Part shown: in pieces, positions 216 through 61,793 of the stretch
Layout of the letters: each line of letters opens with the position of its first letter
Numbering within the stretch: the stretch's first letter is position 1
Assembly (NCBI RefSeq): GCF_947495625.1
Contig: NZ_CANLZW010000002.1
Span: forward strand, 124,001 to 188,000
Source of the DNA: an uncultured Cocleimonas sp.
Lineage (GTDB): Bacteria; Pseudomonadota; Gammaproteobacteria; Thiotrichales; Thiotrichaceae
Direction of reading: 5' to 3'
Length of the DNA stretch: 64,000 bases
The notes under the pieces: model-generated
Database searches by the model: none
What the model saw: the letters and a program-made list of their open reading frames with translations, nothing else
What the model was told of the DNA's origin: nothing
Made by a program: the position numbers and the translations under genes

Positions 216-245
216 GTCACCCCCCTACTTTCAGGTCGTTTTTTT
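216..245 (+). repeat. Dispersed C6-TACTT repeat, copy 1
   Basis: GTCAC form with six C, TACTT, then a T run ending at 245. It lies 46 bp beyond the stop of the minus-strand vWA gene, antisense to that gene. Confidence 0.9.
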
Positions 246-1413: not shown

Positions 1414-1725
1414 AGAGCACCCATGCCTTAAAAACGTAGAGTCAGCCTTTAATATAGACTAAAAGTCACCCCCCTACTTTGAAGCAGTTTTTAGCGGCTA
1501 TGTCTTTCCTTATAATAAACCTTAAAAATCTATTGAGAAATCTATGCAAACTTAGGTAGTTTTTAAAAGCATTGAGTTTTTAAATATACTTGATATGATT
1601 TCCCATTGGGTATCGATATTTCGTGGGTAGCAATTTAGCAACTGAGTCACTCCCCCGTTATCCTGCCCAAAAAATAATATGTTGGTTTTAACACATTTTA
1701 ATCTTATGAATTCTGGGAGGATCAT
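1414..1725. other. Divergent intergenic region between vWA and DsrE-like genes
   Basis: 312 bp without a gene, between divergently transcribed genes. It contains repeat copy 2 and a degenerate look-alike near 1645 (GTCACTCCCCCGTTATC). Promoters for both genes must lie here, but I see no convincing -35/-10 pair. Confidence 0.5.
1465..1492 (+). repeat. Dispersed C6-TACTT repeat, copy 2
   Basis: GTCAC form, six C, TACTT, GAAGCAG, T5. It sits between two divergent genes, so this copy cannot be a transcription terminator for either. Confidence 0.9.
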
Positions 1726-2737: not shown

Positions 2738-4189
2738 ATGCGCGAGAATGAAATATCATCGTTTAGAATTATGAAATATAGCCTAACATTTTTTTTGTTT
2801 TTTTTTGTAATTACGCAATTTTTAGGATGCAACACGGATGATATAAAAGACGCGATAGAAGAAGAGTTTGTTGATTTTGCTGAACCTCTCGATGAAACAA
2901 CTTCAAAGCCTTCTGATCCTGCAAGAGTTTTACCTCCTAATCCAACAGGATGTCCGAATTGGGAAAAGAACATACTTAATAGAGTGACTGAGAGTTTGAC
3001 ATTACCAGAAGGTTGTAAGTACGACCGCGTGAGAATTCTTATTGAAAATGAATCTGATCTGACTCTTGATTGTAATGGTGCAGAACTTAATGGATTAGAC
3101 AAAGAATTTAGGCAGGCCGTTGGGGTTCCATATAGTGCTTCAGATGCACCATCTGATATTGGTATCAGAATTCTATCTCTTGAAACCATTCCTAGTGGAA
3201 ATGTAACTGTAAAAAACTGTGTAATTACAAACTTTCTAACAGGTATATCTGTTCAAACTGTTTTCATCGATGAAACAATCGCAGATTTAAAAAATAATAT
3301 AAACGCTGAAGTTGTGGAAGACCATTTGAGAAACAGTTCACTTAAGAATGTAAGACTTGAAAATAATATTATAAATTATAGCCACAGAAATGGGCTTTTT
3401 ATAAACCGTTATATTACTGGTTTAGTCGTTGATAATACGACTATAAAGTATACGAGTGGCGCTGGTCTTTATTTAGAATCAGGCTCACAGAGCAATATTA
3501 TTCAAAATTCAGTAATCTCAGAGAATGGTCATTCTATTTACGATAGTGGTGAGCGCGTTAGAAAAAGAATTTTGGAAAAGGATGCTAGAGAGGGCATAGC
3601 TATAGATTCCTCAGCCATGAACACAATTCAGAATAATACTTTTGCCAAGAATTCAGGTGGTGGAATCTTTTTATATAAAAACTGTTATGAATATCACACT
3701 AGTCCTACATCTTTACCTCGATATCAGTCTGCAAATAATAATGTAATTACTGGAAATAAATTTGAAGATCAAAGAGTGGGGGTGTGGATAGCTTCTAGAC
3801 AAAGTAAAGATTTAGAAGCTTTCAATTGTGGCATCCCTAAGATTGCAACTGATACCGTAAGATATGGGCCTGTTGAAGAAGATATTTTTATTTATGAAGA
3901 CTTTGCAAAGTTTAACAATGTAAATTCAAATACTTTTATTGATGTTATAAAAGGTATCATAGTAGAAGATGATAACAATACAATTAATGGGAATAAATTT
4001 AGCGGTGATGTAGATTATGATGTTCAGATTGGTACGAAATATAGAACTGAAGCACTGTCTAAGCCCGTAACTGATACAAAAATCACCAATAATGAATTTA
4101 ATTCCTCAGCAAGTGAACATGTTAGGGTCATATATGACTCTGTTAATACCGTAATTACTGGAAATATCCCCGCAACTGTTAACAACTAA
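2738..4189 (+). CDS. Predicted lipoprotein with right-handed beta-helix repeats
   Basis: The 483-residue product begins with a hydrophobic segment ending in the lipobox FLGC (Cys31), so it should be a lipoprotein. AAGGA lies 7 bp before the ATG at 2738; an internal ATG at 2771 would give a shorter, more typical signal. From about residue 85 the sequence carries irregular parallel beta-helix repeats rich in Asn (patterns such as NNIINYSHRNGLFI, NIIQNSVISENGHSIY and NNTFAKNSGGGIFLY), as in NosD/pectate-lyase-like proteins. No catalytic residues of a known enzyme class are evident, so carbohydrate or surface binding is only inferred. It is more AT-rich than the housekeeping blocks, which may reflect acquisition. 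Confidence 0.75.
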   Translation: MRENEISSFRIMKYSLTFFLFFFVITQFLGCNTDDIKDAIEEEFVDFAEPLDETTSKPSDPARVLPPNPTGCPNWEKNILNRVTESLTLPEGCKYDRVRILIENESDLTLDCNGAELNGLDKEFRQAVGVPYSASDAPSDIGIRILSLETIPSGNVTVKNCVITNFLTGISVQTVFIDETIADLKNNINAEVVEDHLRNSSLKNVRLENNIINYSHRNGLFINRYITGLVVDNTTIKYTSGAGLYLESGSQSNIIQNSVISENGHSIYDSGERVRKRILEKDAREGIAIDSSAMNTIQNNTFAKNSGGGIFLYKNCYEYHTSPTSLPRYQSANNNVITGNKFEDQRVGVWIASRQSKDLEAFNCGIPKIATDTVRYGPVEEDIFIYEDFAKFNNVNSNTFIDVIKGIIVEDDNNTINGNKFSGDVDYDVQIGTKYRTEALSKPVTDTKITNNEFNSSASEHVRVIYDSVNTVITGNIPATVNN

Positions 4190-5217: not shown

Positions 5218-5245
5218 GTCACCCCCCTACTTATAGGCACTTTTT
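5218..5245 (+). repeat. Dispersed C6-TACTT repeat, copy 3
   Basis: GTCAC form followed by ATAGGCAC and T5. It lies between convergent genes. Confidence 0.9.
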
Positions 5246-6876: not shown

Positions 6877-6904
6877 GTCACCCCCCTACTTTTAAGTGAT
6901 TTTT
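6877..6904 (+). repeat. Dispersed C6-TACTT repeat, copy 4
   Basis: GTCAC form with TTAAGTGA before T4. It lies between two co-directional plus-strand genes, with its T run facing the ecotin start. Confidence 0.88.
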
Positions 6905-8328: not shown

Positions 8329-8358
8329 GTCACCCCCCTACTTATAGGGTGTTTTTTT
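8329..8358 (+). repeat. Dispersed C6-TACTT repeat, copy 5
   Basis: GTCAC form, ATAGGGTG, T7. Its T run ends 5 bp from the stop of the minus-strand DUF3144 gene. Confidence 0.9.
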
Positions 8359-15840: not shown

Positions 15841-15868
15841 CACACCCCCCTACTTATAGGGGTTTTTT
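15841..15868 (+). repeat. Dispersed C6-TACTT repeat, copy 6
   Basis: CACAC form, ATAGGGG, T6. It lies between convergent bamB and pgi, with its T run ending 7 bp from the pgi stop. Confidence 0.9.
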
Positions 15869-19618: not shown

Positions 19619-19646
19619 CACACCCCCCCACTTTAAGCGATTTTTT
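19619..19646 (+). repeat. Dispersed C6-TACTT repeat, copy 7 (C7-ACTT variant)
   Basis: CACAC form with seven C followed by ACTT, that is, T changed to C at the seventh position; then TAAGCGA and T6. Copies 12 and 16 share this variant. Confidence 0.88.
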
Positions 19647-20588: not shown

Positions 20589-21074
20589 ATTTAACTCCTA
20601 GTAAAATAACCAATAATATAATTAAGTATATTAGAATATAATAATATATATGCTGATTCAATTACCCCAAAAGTAATAGCTAAGCTAATCATGTCTATCA
20701 AACAATAGGGTCACCCCCCTACTTTTTGACTGTTTTTACGTTTATGCGATTTGTAATCGTTGATGAATCATATGCAGAGCTATTTTTTTTAAAACCTCTA
20801 CATAAAACTGATGTCTTACAATACCTGTTATTGCTAATAGCATGGATGACTGTAACTACTAGCATTTAGTTACTTATGTTATTTTGAATACCACTTTGAA
20901 TTTTAGAATGATGCCTTATACTCTAGAACGATTTTTTCTACTCAGGAATGACTAGCTGATATGAAAAGAGCGATCTATTATTGAATTTCTGACCTTTCTC
21001 TTTATTCATTGAAAGTTACTCATTGATAGTTCAACAAATGATAAATCACCAAATATTATGATTAGAGCAAATTT
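20589..21074. other. Divergent intergenic region upstream of trpF
   Basis: 486 bp holding repeat copy 8. A weak promoter candidate, TTGAAT (20896-20901) with TATACT (20917-20922), has a short 15-bp spacer. I find no Trp-rich leader peptide or attenuator hairpin before trpF. Otherwise nothing is supported. Confidence 0.45.
20710..20737 (+). repeat. Dispersed C6-TACTT repeat, copy 8
   Basis: GTCAC form, TTTGACTG, T5. It lies in a divergent intergenic region. Confidence 0.88.
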
Positions 21075-24971: not shown

Positions 24972-24999
24972 GTCACCCCCCTACTTTTGGGCATATTTT
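24972..24999 (+). repeat. Dispersed C6-TACTT repeat, copy 9
   Basis: GTCAC form, TTGGGCATA, T4. It lies between accD and folC, interrupting an otherwise co-directional gene block. Confidence 0.88.
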
Positions 25000-30152: not shown

Positions 30153-30181
30153 TACACCCCCCTACTTTCGGGCACTTTTTT
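30153..30181 (+). repeat. Dispersed C6-TACTT repeat, copy 10
   Basis: TACAC form, TCGGGCAC, T6. It lies between convergent genes, with its T run 7 bp from the pgsA stop. Confidence 0.9.
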
Positions 30182-37275: not shown

Positions 37276-37303
37276 GTCACCCCCCTACTTTTAGGCGTTT
37301 TTT
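37276..37303 (+). repeat. Dispersed C6-TACTT repeat, copy 11
   Basis: GTCAC form, TTAGGCG, T6. The T run overlaps the stop codon of the minus-strand Nif3-like gene at 37302-37304. Confidence 0.92.
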
Positions 37304-39657: not shown

Positions 39658-40500
39658 TTATAATTTCTCTAATCTTCGTACTTCAACCAACTGAATCCTG
39701 CGACCATCACTGCGTAATATTTTGAAGGAGAATTTATTCATTTTAATTTCTTCTCCCTGCCCCGGTATCTTGCCCGCTTTTTGTGAAATCAATCCGCCCA
39801 AGGTGTCATATTTATCCAATGGCATATCACATTTAAAATACTCATTGAACTCTTCAAGCTCAGTGCTTGCCTGAATCGTATATCGGCCATCACTTTGCGC
39901 AAGGATATTCTTCTTTTCATCGACGTCATCATGTTCGTCATCGATATCACCGACGATCTGCTCCAGAACATCTTCGATAGTTACCAATCCAGAAGTCCCT
40001 GAATACTCATCAACCACCATCGCCATGTGGTTTCGACTATTTCTGAACTGGCTTAGCAGTGTATTGAGTTTTTGGCTTTCCGGCACAAACGAAGGCGGCC
40101 TGATGATGTCATCGATATCGAAACTATTTTCATTACCGACATACTTGAGTAAGTCCTTAGCGAGTAGAATGCCTTCCACATCATCTTTATTTTCGTCAAA
40201 AACAGGATAGCGTGAATGCCCTGCTTTCATTACCATTTTTAAAATATCGTGATAGCTATCGTTTAGATGCAAAAATCCAATATTAGCGCGGGGAATCATA
40301 ATATCCCGCACCTGAAGATTATCTACCTGCATCACACCTTCAAGCATTCCCAGCGATTCAGATGAAATGATATTGTTCTTCTGAGACTGCCTTAACTCCG
40401 CAACCAATTCCTCCTGATCTAGCACACTGGTGTCTATGGTGTTTCTTATCCATTTATGGAGCCACGGTCTGGTTTTGACTTGTTTATCTTCTTGATTCAT
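39658..40500 (-). CDS. corC: CorC/YbeX-type CBS domain transporter-associated protein
   Basis: A 280-residue cytoplasmic protein with two CBS domains (about 65-125 and 130-185; VRDIMIPRANIGFLHLND and HMAMVVDEYSGTSGLVTIED) and a C-terminal CorC_HlyC domain (SFKILRSDGRRIQLVEV). It is linked by family to magnesium and cobalt efflux and, in E. coli, to ribosome-related stress functions. It overlaps ybeY by 4 bp, a sign of coupled translation. Confidence 0.94.
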   Translation of the reverse strand: MNQEDKQVKTRPWLHKWIRNTIDTSVLDQEELVAELRQSQKNNIISSESLGMLEGVMQVDNLQVRDIMIPRANIGFLHLNDSYHDILKMVMKAGHSRYPVFDENKDDVEGILLAKDLLKYVGNENSFDIDDIIRPPSFVPESQKLNTLLSQFRNSRNHMAMVVDEYSGTSGLVTIEDVLEQIVGDIDDEHDDVDEKKNILAQSDGRYTIQASTELEEFNEYFKCDMPLDKYDTLGGLISQKAGKIPGQGEEIKMNKFSFKILRSDGRRIQLVEVRRLEKL

Positions 40501-41042
40501 TTGTACGGGTTCTTAAATCCCAATTTATCTAACGTTTCTATTTCCAAAGCTTCCATCTGCTCAGCTTCATCATCTTCAATGTGATCATATCCTTGCAGGT
40601 GAAGTACCCCATGAATAATCAGATGAGCCCAATGCTGTTGCAGTGTTTTGTTTTGCTCTTCGGCCTCTTTATTTACGACACTGTCGCAAACAACCAGGTC
40701 CCCTAAATGGGCTGGTTGCTCTTGGAGCTCAGGAATTGCCAAGAGTTCCTCTGGTAATTCATAAGGGAATGAAAGAATATTCGTCGTACTTGGTTTTTGC
40801 CGATATGTCTGATTTAACGCCAACCCCTCTTCATCATCAACTACGCGCACAACAATAGTCACCCCCCCACTTTCAGGCAGTTTTTTTTGTTTGATGTATT
40901 GCGTTTGTAATGCAGCCGAACACCAGATTTTAAAGTCTTCTTCAGAGGGCAACGATTGAAAATCACAAGGATTTTGTAGCTCCACAACTACAGTGACTAA
41001 ATGCTCGCTAAGAACATCTGACAATTGTTTTGAAATATTCAT
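40497..41042 (-). CDS. ybeY: Endoribonuclease YbeY with a repeat-encoded insertion
   Basis: Zinc-dependent RNase involved in 16S rRNA 3' maturation and ribosome quality control. The zinc motif is complete: IIHGVLHLQGYDHIEDDEAE (H-x3-H-x5-H). The 181-residue protein is longer than E. coli YbeY partly because copy 12 of the dispersed repeat lies inside the reading frame, encoding residues 52-62 (QKKLPESGGVT) just before the VTIVVRVVDDEEG strand. The insert falls between an N-terminal helix and a beta strand and keeps the frame, so the enzyme is probably active. It overlaps corC by 4 bp. Confidence 0.95.
   Translation of the reverse strand: MNISKQLSDVLSEHLVTVVVELQNPCDFQSLPSEEDFKIWCSAALQTQYIKQKKLPESGGVTIVVRVVDDEEGLALNQTYRQKPSTTNILSFPYELPEELLAIPELQEQPAHLGDLVVCDSVVNKEAEEQNKTLQQHWAHLIIHGVLHLQGYDHIEDDEAEQMEALEIETLDKLGFKNPYK
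40858..40888 (+). repeat. Dispersed C6-TACTT repeat, copy 12, inside ybeY
   Basis: GTCAC form with seven C and ACTT, TCAGGCAG, T8. Read from the minus strand it encodes KKLPESGGVT. This is the only full copy in the interior of a conserved gene. Confidence 0.93.
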
Positions 41043-42255: not shown

Positions 42256-42284
42256 AAAAAAAGGCCCATAAGTAGGGGGGTGTG
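42256..42284 (-). repeat. Dispersed C6-TACTT repeat, copy 13 (reverse orientation)
   Basis: One of only two reversed copies. On the minus strand it reads CACACCCCCCTACTTATGGG, CC, T7. It lies upstream of phoH and downstream of ypfJ. Confidence 0.9.
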
Positions 42285-46739: not shown

Positions 46740-46767
46740 CACACCCCCCTACTTTTAGGCTATTTTT
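46740..46767 (+). repeat. Dispersed C6-TACTT repeat, copy 14
   Basis: CACAC form, TTAGGCTA, T5. Its T run is 22 bp from the tpx stop. With copy 15 it frames tpx. Confidence 0.9.
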
Positions 46768-47404: not shown

Positions 47405-47433
47405 GTCACCCCCCTACTTATAGGCACTTTTTT
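47405..47433 (+). repeat. Dispersed C6-TACTT repeat, copy 15
   Basis: GTCAC form, ATAGGCAC, T6. Its T run ends 9 bp from the uvrA stop. Confidence 0.92.
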
Positions 47434-51813: not shown

Positions 51814-52800
51814 ATGACCAAACTGAAATCATTCTTCGGAATTGCTCTGTCCCCCGTCAGCCACATTGAGAAAGTCGTATCCGCAATTGGCGGATTTACC
51901 GCTATTTTCTTCATTATTATCATTAGCCAATCGATGCTTAGTGGCAGTGGCGGCATAAACAGCGCTGCGCTGATCATTGCTTCGATGGGCGCTTCTGCGG
52001 TATTACTGTTTGCCGTTCCACACGGACCGTTATCTCAACCCTGGCCAGTTTTGGGTGGGCATTTAATCTCTGCATTGATTGGGGTTAGCTGTGCCAAATT
52101 GATACCTAATGACTTAATTGCCGCTAGTCTGGCTGTGGGTTTGGCAATTGGTGCAATGTATTACCTCAAGTGTATTCATCCCCCCGGCGGTGCGACTGCG
52201 CTATCTGCGGTGATTGGTGGAAGCGCGACTCATGATTTGGGCTATCAGTTTATTCTCACCCCTATTCTACTCAATGTTATCGTGATTCTGCTTATTGGTA
52301 TTTTATTCAACTACCCATTTGCATGGCGAAGATATCCGGTTTTTTTACATCGTAAACAGAATCAGGTTACACCCCCTAACGCTAGCACTGAAGTGATTCC
52401 ATCAATAACACACGAAGATTTCGTCTATGCACTGAGTGAAATAGATTCATTCATTGATGTCAGTGAATATGATTTGATTCGAATCTATAACCTCGCGACT
52501 AAAAAATCGCAGCAGGCATCTTTTGATCCAAAGAAAATGATCGTAGGCAGTTATTACAGCAGCGCGACGCATGGCGAAAACTGGACGGTACGCCAAATAG
52601 TGGATGAATCTTCTGGTATTGCTGAAGGCTCTAAAAGTAAAGATCCAGATAAAGATATCGTGATATATAAAGTCATCGCAGGGAAAAACAAACGTAGCTC
52701 GGGTTATTCAACCCGTACCGAGTTTTTAGAATGGGCTAAACATCAGGTTGAGCCAGATGGTAATGCCTGGAAAATACTTGAACACACCCCCCCACTTTAA
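51814..52800 (+). CDS. HPP family membrane protein with repeat-derived C-terminus
   Basis: A 328-residue protein with an N-terminal HPP domain of four to five membrane segments (about 22-165) that includes the signature KCIHPPGGATALSAVIGG. A soluble C-terminal part of unknown fold (about 185-328) follows. HPP proteins are linked to nitrite transport in cyanobacteria and plants; that role is not established here. The ATG directly follows the stop of the YajR-like gene. The last five codons (HTPPL) and the TAA stop are supplied by repeat copy 16, so the native C-terminus may have been replaced. Confidence 0.88.
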   Translation: MTKLKSFFGIALSPVSHIEKVVSAIGGFTAIFFIIIISQSMLSGSGGINSAALIIASMGASAVLLFAVPHGPLSQPWPVLGGHLISALIGVSCAKLIPNDLIAASLAVGLAIGAMYYLKCIHPPGGATALSAVIGGSATHDLGYQFILTPILLNVIVILLIGILFNYPFAWRRYPVFLHRKQNQVTPPNASTEVIPSITHEDFVYALSEIDSFIDVSEYDLIRIYNLATKKSQQASFDPKKMIVGSYYSSATHGENWTVRQIVDESSGIAEGSKSKDPDKDIVIYKVIAGKNKRSSGYSTRTEFLEWAKHQVEPDGNAWKILEHTPPL

Positions 52801-54323: not shown

Positions 54324-54352
54324 TACACCCCCCTACTTTCAGGACTTTTTTT
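54324..54352 (+). repeat. Dispersed C6-TACTT repeat, copy 17
   Basis: TACAC form, TCAGGAC, T7. Its last bases overlap the stop codon of the minus-strand iron alcohol dehydrogenase gene. Confidence 0.92.
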
Positions 54353-55751: not shown

Positions 55752-55779
55752 GTCACCCCCCTACTTTTAAGCCTTTTTT
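55752..55779 (+). repeat. Dispersed C6-TACTT repeat, copy 18
   Basis: GTCAC form, TTAAGCC, T6. It lies in a divergent intergenic region, T run facing the SDR start. Confidence 0.9.
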
Positions 55780-58250: not shown

Positions 58251-58276
58251 AAAACACCTAAAAGTAGGGGGGTGTA
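58251..58276 (-). repeat. Dispersed C6-TACTT repeat, copy 19 (reverse orientation)
   Basis: The second reversed copy: on the minus strand TACACCCCCCTACTTTTAGG, TG, T4 and a broken T run. It begins 16 bp after the prenyltransferase stop, antisense to that gene. Confidence 0.88.
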
Positions 58277-61436: not shown

Positions 61437-61465
61437 GTCACCCCCCCTACTTTTAAGGAGTTTTT
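61437..61465 (+). repeat. Dispersed C6-TACTT repeat, copy 20, supplies a Shine-Dalgarno
   Basis: GTCAC form with seven C, TACTT, then TTAAGGAG and T5. AAGGAG (61455-61460) sits 5 bp before the phhB ATG at 61466, and the copy ends one base before that ATG. Confidence 0.93.
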
Positions 61466-61765: not shown

Positions 61766-61793
61766 GTCACCCCCCTACTTTAGGGCATATTTT
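61766..61793 (+). repeat. Dispersed C6-TACTT repeat, copy 21
   Basis: GTCAC form, TAGGGCATA, T3. It begins at the base after the phhB stop. Confidence 0.9.

Follow-up and report, generated by a model that had tools for sequence, protein, structure and literature searches.

A repeat copy inside the ybeY gene of an uncultured Cocleimonas sp. as a putative site of a genome-wide, uptake-type recognition motif

The systems closest to the repeat analysed here are REP elements, uptake sequences and polar chromosome signals such as KOPS and AIMS. In REP/RAYT systems, the REP core contains GTAG and RAYT transposases mobilise REP/BIME units. Uptake sequences are described in a passage of PMC1939737 as having no orientation bias, with the remark that a preferred uptake orientation would create one; the same passage places 65% of those of H. 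influenzae and 35% of those of N. gonorrhoeae in reading frames. Their intragenic bias is the subject of PMC2346458; a minor pilin is predicted as the USS receptor in PMC12616744; and the families named for sequence-specific uptake in a passage of PMC7811141 are Pasteurellaceae and Neisseriaceae.

The window is a 64,000-nucleotide stretch from the genome referred to as G000, whose nearest repeat-bearing relative is G003. It holds 21 copies of a G-rich repeat, of which 19 lie on the minus strand; the core is exact in 20, and the remaining one has an additional G. Rows at 3772/3774 and 15997, which have two mismatches and no flanking match, were excluded from this count. The copies outside ybeY are:

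218..230, minus strand: core of copy 1
1467..1479, minus strand: core of copy 2
5220..5232, minus strand: core of copy 3
6879..6891, minus strand: core of copy 4
8331..8343, minus strand: core of copy 5, also in G003
15843..15855, minus strand: core of copy 6, also in G003
19621..19633, minus strand: core of copy 7, in a slot common to G003
20712..20724, minus strand: core of copy 8, sharing the slot of copy 7, which holds a single copy in G003
24974..24986, minus strand: core of copy 9, also in G003
30155..30167, minus strand: core of copy 10, also in G003
37278..37290, minus strand: core of copy 11, also in G003
42270..42282, plus strand: core of copy 13, in lagging orientation, also in G003
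46742..46754, minus strand: core of copy 14, also in G003
47407..47419, minus strand: core of copy 15; G003 has two copies flanking an 8.2-kb insertion here
52785..52797, minus strand: core of copy 16, also in G003; overlaps the last codons of the plus-strand gene at 51814-52800
54326..54338, minus strand: core of copy 17, also in G003
55754..55766, minus strand: core of copy 18, also in G003
58262..58274, plus strand: core of copy 19; the G003 version has an extra G and falls outside the stricter count
61440..61452, minus strand: copy 20, with seven Gs; none at the aligned place in G003
61768..61780, minus strand: core of copy 21

The repeat is a non-palindromic motif of ~35 bp made up of an A-tract, ~10 bp, AAAGTAGGGGGGTG and a T-tract. 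Aligned copies give a consensus on the G-rich strand of AAAAAA (positions -14 to -9), two free bases, GCCT, one base, AAAGTAGGGGGGTG and approximately ACTTTWW; no inverted repeat is present in the consensus of single copies. Some copies occur as inverted pairs ~41 bp apart, start to start, the middle of which is able to pair as a hairpin, and in G000 the spacing of these pairs is near-constant. Because AAGTRGGGGGGTG occurs 913 times in the 4.6-Mb G000 genome (89 contigs) versus once for the reversed pattern, the repeat is not a product of chance. Gene context was assigned by long-ORF proxies rather than gene calls: this measure places 78 of the 89 copies sampled in G000, and 203 of 234 (~87%) in G003, between genes, and sequence outside such long ORFs amounts to about 13-14%. 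In the open-licence literature, no description of the core strings in a relevant setting was found.

The related genomes, which are mostly drafts, place the repeat within the genus. Six of the 12 genus genomes are rich in the exact core (G000, 913; G003, 879; G004, 651; G011, 620; G008, 289; G007, 237); none of the remaining six, and none of 64 genomes from outside the genus, has more than four occurrences. In G-run contexts from sampled stretches, other genus members show the same layout in different letters: G009 and G002 carry A-tracts followed by approximately A7 G7 ATGGGT, and G010 carries ACAAATC..CGAAAAAGA G7 TGG. The string AAAAAGGGGGGG occurs 436 times in G009 and 214 times in G002, versus once each in G000 and G003. 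A broader pattern, AAAANNGGGGGG, occurs 20 to 1370 times and at least fivefold above its control in 9 of the 12 genus genomes; below that level are G001 (19 against 8 in the control), G005 (13 against 3) and G006 (4 against 2). The scan outside the genus covered the exact core and AAAANNGGGGGG, and neither is frequent in the 64 genomes: counts of AAAANNGGGGGG are 0-16, although a few do exceed their tiny controls (13 against 1 in G027). Inverted pairs account for 16 of 27 sampled elements in G010 (L084, L092, L139-L144), versus 2 of 42 in G009.

The copy in ybeY, the twelfth of the 21, lies within a gene of 181 codons with a PF02130 match. From their translations, its neighbours are taken to be lnt, ybeX and phoH. 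The features are:

40497..41042, minus strand: ybeY, the host gene (181 aa, PF02130), used in the comparison with 1XM5
40860..40872, minus strand: core of copy 12, the G-variant AAGTGGGGGGGTG, from the last base of codon 57 to codon 61
40881..40888, minus strand: upstream A-tract of the ybeY copy, codons 52-54
40853..40859, minus strand: downstream flank of the ybeY copy, ACTATTG, where the consensus is approximately ACTTTWW

A sequence-only reading of this DNA had proposed that a repeat copy has become coding sequence in ybeY, and this is borne out: codons 52-62, encoding QKKLPESGGVT, are in frame with the copy. Its numbering as copy 12 also stands. Its description as antisense does not, unless the C-rich strand is taken as forward, as the G-rich core lies on the minus strand, which is the coding strand of ybeY. 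The AlphaFold2 model places residues 53-60 in a loop between a helix (34-52) and a strand (61-68), which agrees with the proposed position directly before a conserved strand and with the suggestion of a surface loop, the latter at low confidence (pLDDT 58 for the block, 80.6 overall). The region was also correctly described as longer than in E. coli YbeY, with ~9 gap positions relative to 1XM5.

The further claim, that the element entered ybeY, is not supported by the comparison. One motif-based measure gives a loop length of 29 residues in G000 and G003, 22 in G010, G002 and G005, and 26 in G011, G004, G008, G009 and G016. The excess of G000 over the genus members measured is 3-7 residues, less than the 10-12 codons of the element itself, and loop length varies without a copy; G002 and G009 have a common dialect, yet their loops differ in length (22 vs 26). 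The proposed alignment of relatives' YbeY for a pre-insertion site returned no empty site with clean ends among the relatives compared, and a clean insertion into ybeY was rejected on these grounds. When YbeY of G000 and G003 is aligned with that of 28 other relatives, none of the 28 has the residues of the copy; the core-rich genus members G004, G007, G008 and G011 are among them. No run of at least five G or C was found in ybeY of 10 other genus genomes; the genes of G010, G002, G005, G011, G004, G008, G009, G016, G001, G006, G007 and G021 are without a run of five G or C.

G003 carries the corresponding repeat copy in ybeY, at the same codons as G000. Among the ten copy codons compared, all with an identical residue in the two genomes, there are 0 of 10 synonymous differences, versus 43 of 122 for the remaining ybeY codons compared (Fisher p 0.03); in the 12 codons that precede the copy, 18 of 36 bases differ. 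The earlier view that the element is tolerated in ybeY is thus too weak: the gene provides a tolerant loop hosting a DNA site that is maintained. Judged from these alignments, its exact letters appear preserved as if the cell or a DNA-exchange machinery needs to read them. The ybeY copy is not the only coding one: the long-ORF proxy places 11 of the 89 copies sampled in G000, and 31 of 234 in G003, in overlap with an ORF. Another intra-ORF copy lies at offset 250 of a 939-bp ORF in each of the two genomes, though not at the same chromosomal location (L128 3303, L079 12217), and may represent a second coding site retained in both species.

Sites common to G000 and G003 allow the history of individual copies to be followed. 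Orthologue identity between the genomes has a median of 92.5% over 63 kept pairs, some of them outside the shared block. Within the block, 13 of the 14 slots with a copy in G000 also have one in G003, a count that covers two regions of >1,500 bases skipped by the inter-gene comparison. At the fourteenth slot, the G003 version has one G more. G003 has no counterpart at the aligned place of the seven-G copy at 61440, which is outside the slot count. All 11 one-to-one sites keep the same orientation. By ungapped identity, their core is almost unchanged (0.99), the A-tract somewhat less so (0.89), and the outer flanks have diverged (0.46-0.58). The base at -2 has become C at 6 of these 11 sites (A to C in five, T to C in one). 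In this one syntenic block, the dialect shifts site by site through substitution, not insertion, and neither terminal inverted repeats nor target duplications nor clean empty sites were seen there. At 52785-52800 of the window, in the gene at 51814-52800, the -2 change in G003 appears to move the stop from TAA to TGA.

The slot at 47407 is occupied by a single copy in G000. G003 has an 8.2-kb stretch there (L058 7080-15330; C3 ~786,080-794,330) that is absent from G000, holds a gene for a 2492-aa repeat-rich surface-type protein, and has two direct element copies and a shared GCATCT at its flanks. The element may have provided homology for this 8.2-kb exchange.

These data bear on the possibility that a mobile repeat (REP/MITE-like or IS200/IS605-related, entering the single-stranded lagging-strand template) landed in ybeY. 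High copy number, intergenic bias, replication-strand bias, the near-constant spacing of inverted pairs in G000 and the G003 insertion between two copies would all be expected of such an element. Against it, single copies have a consensus without an inverted repeat, shared sites change by substitution and in concert, and the length of the ybeY loop differs among relatives that have no copy there. In addition, a Y1 transposase was not found in G003, G004, G007, G008 or G011, which hold 237-879 copies, although one is present in G000, and the extended motif has 0 exact matches in viral contigs. A mobile origin is considered quite improbable. The repeat resembles REP/BIME in being abundant and intergenic, with GTAG inside the core and inverted pairs, but differs in that it is not palindromic, its GTAG is lost in other dialects and several copy-rich genomes are without Y1. 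A REP/RAYT assignment was rejected for the non-palindromic consensus and the absence of Y1 from five copy-rich genomes; a MITE or IS insertion was rejected for the lack of terminal inverted repeats, target duplication and clean empty sites in the shared block.

In G000 and G003, the orientation of the repeat follows replication. With the leading strand assigned from the GC skew of segments of 20 kb or less (in one case of the 64-kb window), except around dnaA, the G-rich strand is leading in 181 copies and lies on the other strand in 53 in G003 (47 sampled stretches), with a ratio of 68:21 in G000. A GC-skew artefact was rejected since isolated G5 runs show little bias (123:101 in G003; 35:39 in G000). 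Polarity is also independent of gene direction. Single copies in G003 are oriented leading:lagging 42:8 where the adjacent genes are leading, 39:10 where they are lagging, 40:10 where they converge and 24:2 where they diverge; the corresponding ratios in G000 are 20:3, 8:2, 15:3 and 12:0. Transcription-linked orientation was rejected on this basis.

The same counts argue against a transcription or nucleoid element, that is, a terminator or a site for a nucleoid-associated protein with no uptake or orientation role. Such a role would fit the intergenic placement, the terminator-like inverted pairs and the phased A-tracts. It would not account for an orientation that ignores the direction of neighbouring genes, for single copies that are not hairpins by consensus, or for dialect changes that are species-wide, and it is judged very unlikely.

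Around the origin, polarity can be fixed by dnaA, located at C1:968,678 in G003 and at C1:215 kb in G000. The sub-motif CAAAGTAGGGGGGTGAC has 88 copies in G003; on C1, 11 of 11 lie on the minus strand to the left of dnaA and 5 of 6 on the plus strand to its right (16:1), the lone exception being half of an inverted pair. Overall it is oriented 87:1 leading:lagging in G003, a ratio for which the C1 switch is fixed by dnaA and the second switch, at C2 120 kb, was set from the data together with the skew change. A second sub-motif, RTAAGTRGGGGGGTGSC, occurs 138 times in G003; among 100 listed, 43 are leading and 57 lagging (12 and 30 on C1). The split between sub-motifs was found in the sampled G003 stretches and then counted genome-wide, so that partly the same sites enter both steps. 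In sampled G003 singles, the base at -1 is A in ~122 leading and 6 lagging copies and T in ~43 and 32, counts that are rounded from frequencies. In G003, copies with A at -1 or A at +13 thus favour the leading strand, and the RT...SC form is mixed to lagging.

Bias is weaker on the contig that holds the origin. In G000, C1 gives 14:13 and C2 54:8 (p 0.0007), or 8:7 against 54:8 without inverted pairs; in G003, the origin contig gives 31:14 against 49:8 (p 0.05). No polarity is seen in G009, the densest sampled dialect (singles 22:18; window coherence 27 vs 26.9 expected), and none that is reliable in the few sites sampled in G010, G004, G007 (p 0.08) and G011 (p 0.12).

Canonical KOPS are polar in the usual sense in the same DNA (18:3 in G003; 8:1 in G000), and GCTGGTGG is polar in G003 (29:12) and not clearly so in the smaller G000 sample (9:5). 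KOPS and Chi were both rejected as identities of the repeat: the GGGNAGGG octamer is not in the core and canonical KOPS are present separately; neither the GCTGGTGG octamer nor the Haemophilus form of Chi is in the core, and GCTGGTGG is likewise present separately.

One possibility would be that the repeat is a KOPS/AIMS-like signal through which a cytoplasmic DNA-tracking or DNA-loading protein senses the origin-to-terminus direction, with the ybeY copy as a coding instance. Like AIMS and KOPS, as a part of PMC5993296 presents them, the repeat has a leading orientation that flips at the origin, a weaker bias on the origin contig and a taxon-specific distribution; more leading than lagging copies, the AIMS criterion, are found in both G000 and G003. 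The leading excess over G5 runs, the independence from gene direction in G003 and the near-complete polarity of CAAAGTAGGGGGGTGAC with its flip at dnaA all point in this direction. Unlike the AIMS/KOPS octamer, the repeat is ~35 bp long and mostly intergenic, co-exists with canonical KOPS and shows no polarity in G009; the genomes with few sampled sites show none that is reliable. With KOPS and GCTGGTGG in the same DNA, the roles look taken, and the fast dialect turnover would be unusual for a chromosome signal. This explanation, the chief alternative to the uptake reading given below, is regarded as somewhat doubtful.

Taken together, the repeat is abundant, has one architecture shared across dialects, is kept up through substitution at the sites shared in one syntenic block, prefers intergenic sequence and is polar in G000 and G003. 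The best reading of these properties is an uptake-type self-recognition watermark that has turned replication-polar; as a putative function it is assigned a probability of roughly 0.42. Like Haemophilus USS and Neisseria DUS, as parts of PMC3630211, PMC7811141 and PMC1939737 describe them, the repeat has hundreds of copies or more, a core with flanks (those of USS being AT-rich), dialects, change through point mutation, terminator-linked inverted pairs and some permissive coding copies. Copy number, dialects, point-mutation evolution and the company of ComEC and a ComP-type pilin are all found here. Unlike USS and DUS, it has strong replication-strand polarity in two species, strand-specific sub-motifs, a ~87% intergenic placement by the ORF proxy and a long bipartite A-tract/G-run motif. 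Because published uptake sequences are said to be without orientation bias, at least in the passage of PMC1939737 cited above, the repeat is not filed as a USS or DUS.

Further observations weigh against the watermark. A simple uptake model gives no reason to expect sub-motifs that differ between strands, and 203 of 234 copies are intergenic, unlike the 65% and 35% in reading frames given for H. influenzae and N. gonorrhoeae. A more specific version, in which the uptake watermark is tied to the direction of replication and each strand has a sub-motif of its own, is considered unlikely. If it held, transformation would import a defined strand, integration of that strand would favour one side of the fork, and a record of this process would be readable across the chromosome, even inside ybeY.

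The uptake reading also involves genes for the machinery. All 12 genus genomes have a ComEC-family match, 11 of them over the cut-off, as do 12 of 14 named controls. A ComP_DUS-family pilin is present in 9 of 12 genus genomes, 34 of 45 outside the genus and 0 of the 14 named controls. Both are present in G000 and G003. Since both are common outside the genus, they do not single it out, and G001, G005 and G006 have ComEC and the pilin with few or no elements.

If the repeat is an uptake-type watermark, the ybeY segment would be one site of a genus-specific, genome-wide recognition motif. Its layout would comprise two A-tracts about one helix turn apart, G6-7 and TG, and, in most dialects, a T-tract. 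A dedicated protein would read this motif, which would be maintained and rewritten in concert at hundreds of sites. The likeliest reader would be the natural-transformation machinery, in which a type IV minor pilin acts with ComEC; the ComP_DUS-family minor pilin is a candidate reader protein. The motif may have spread through biased uptake and recombination, as a DNA uptake or self-recognition sequence. In G000 and G003, the element could also determine the strand that is taken up; if that strand anneals better at one arm of the fork, the leading-strand orientation would be favoured. The ybeY site would sit in a surface loop of variable length, in which ESGGVT can be encoded, and would be kept as DNA.

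As an uptake watermark, the repeat would extend sequence-specific uptake beyond Pasteurellaceae and Neisseriaceae, and would provide a polar example, contrary to published uptake sequences as the same passage of PMC1939737 describes them. As a chromosome signal, it would be an unusually long polar signal that switches dialect within one genus. Under either reading, the many sites shared between species make genome-wide motif upkeep traceable base by base, and the ybeY copy is an instance of DNA-level upkeep within a conserved protein gene.

The ComP_DUS-family minor pilin itself (L171, L179) has 75% identity between G000 and G003, against the orthologue median of 92.5%. Across nine genus sequences, the ComP-type pilin evolves at about the rate of YbeY.
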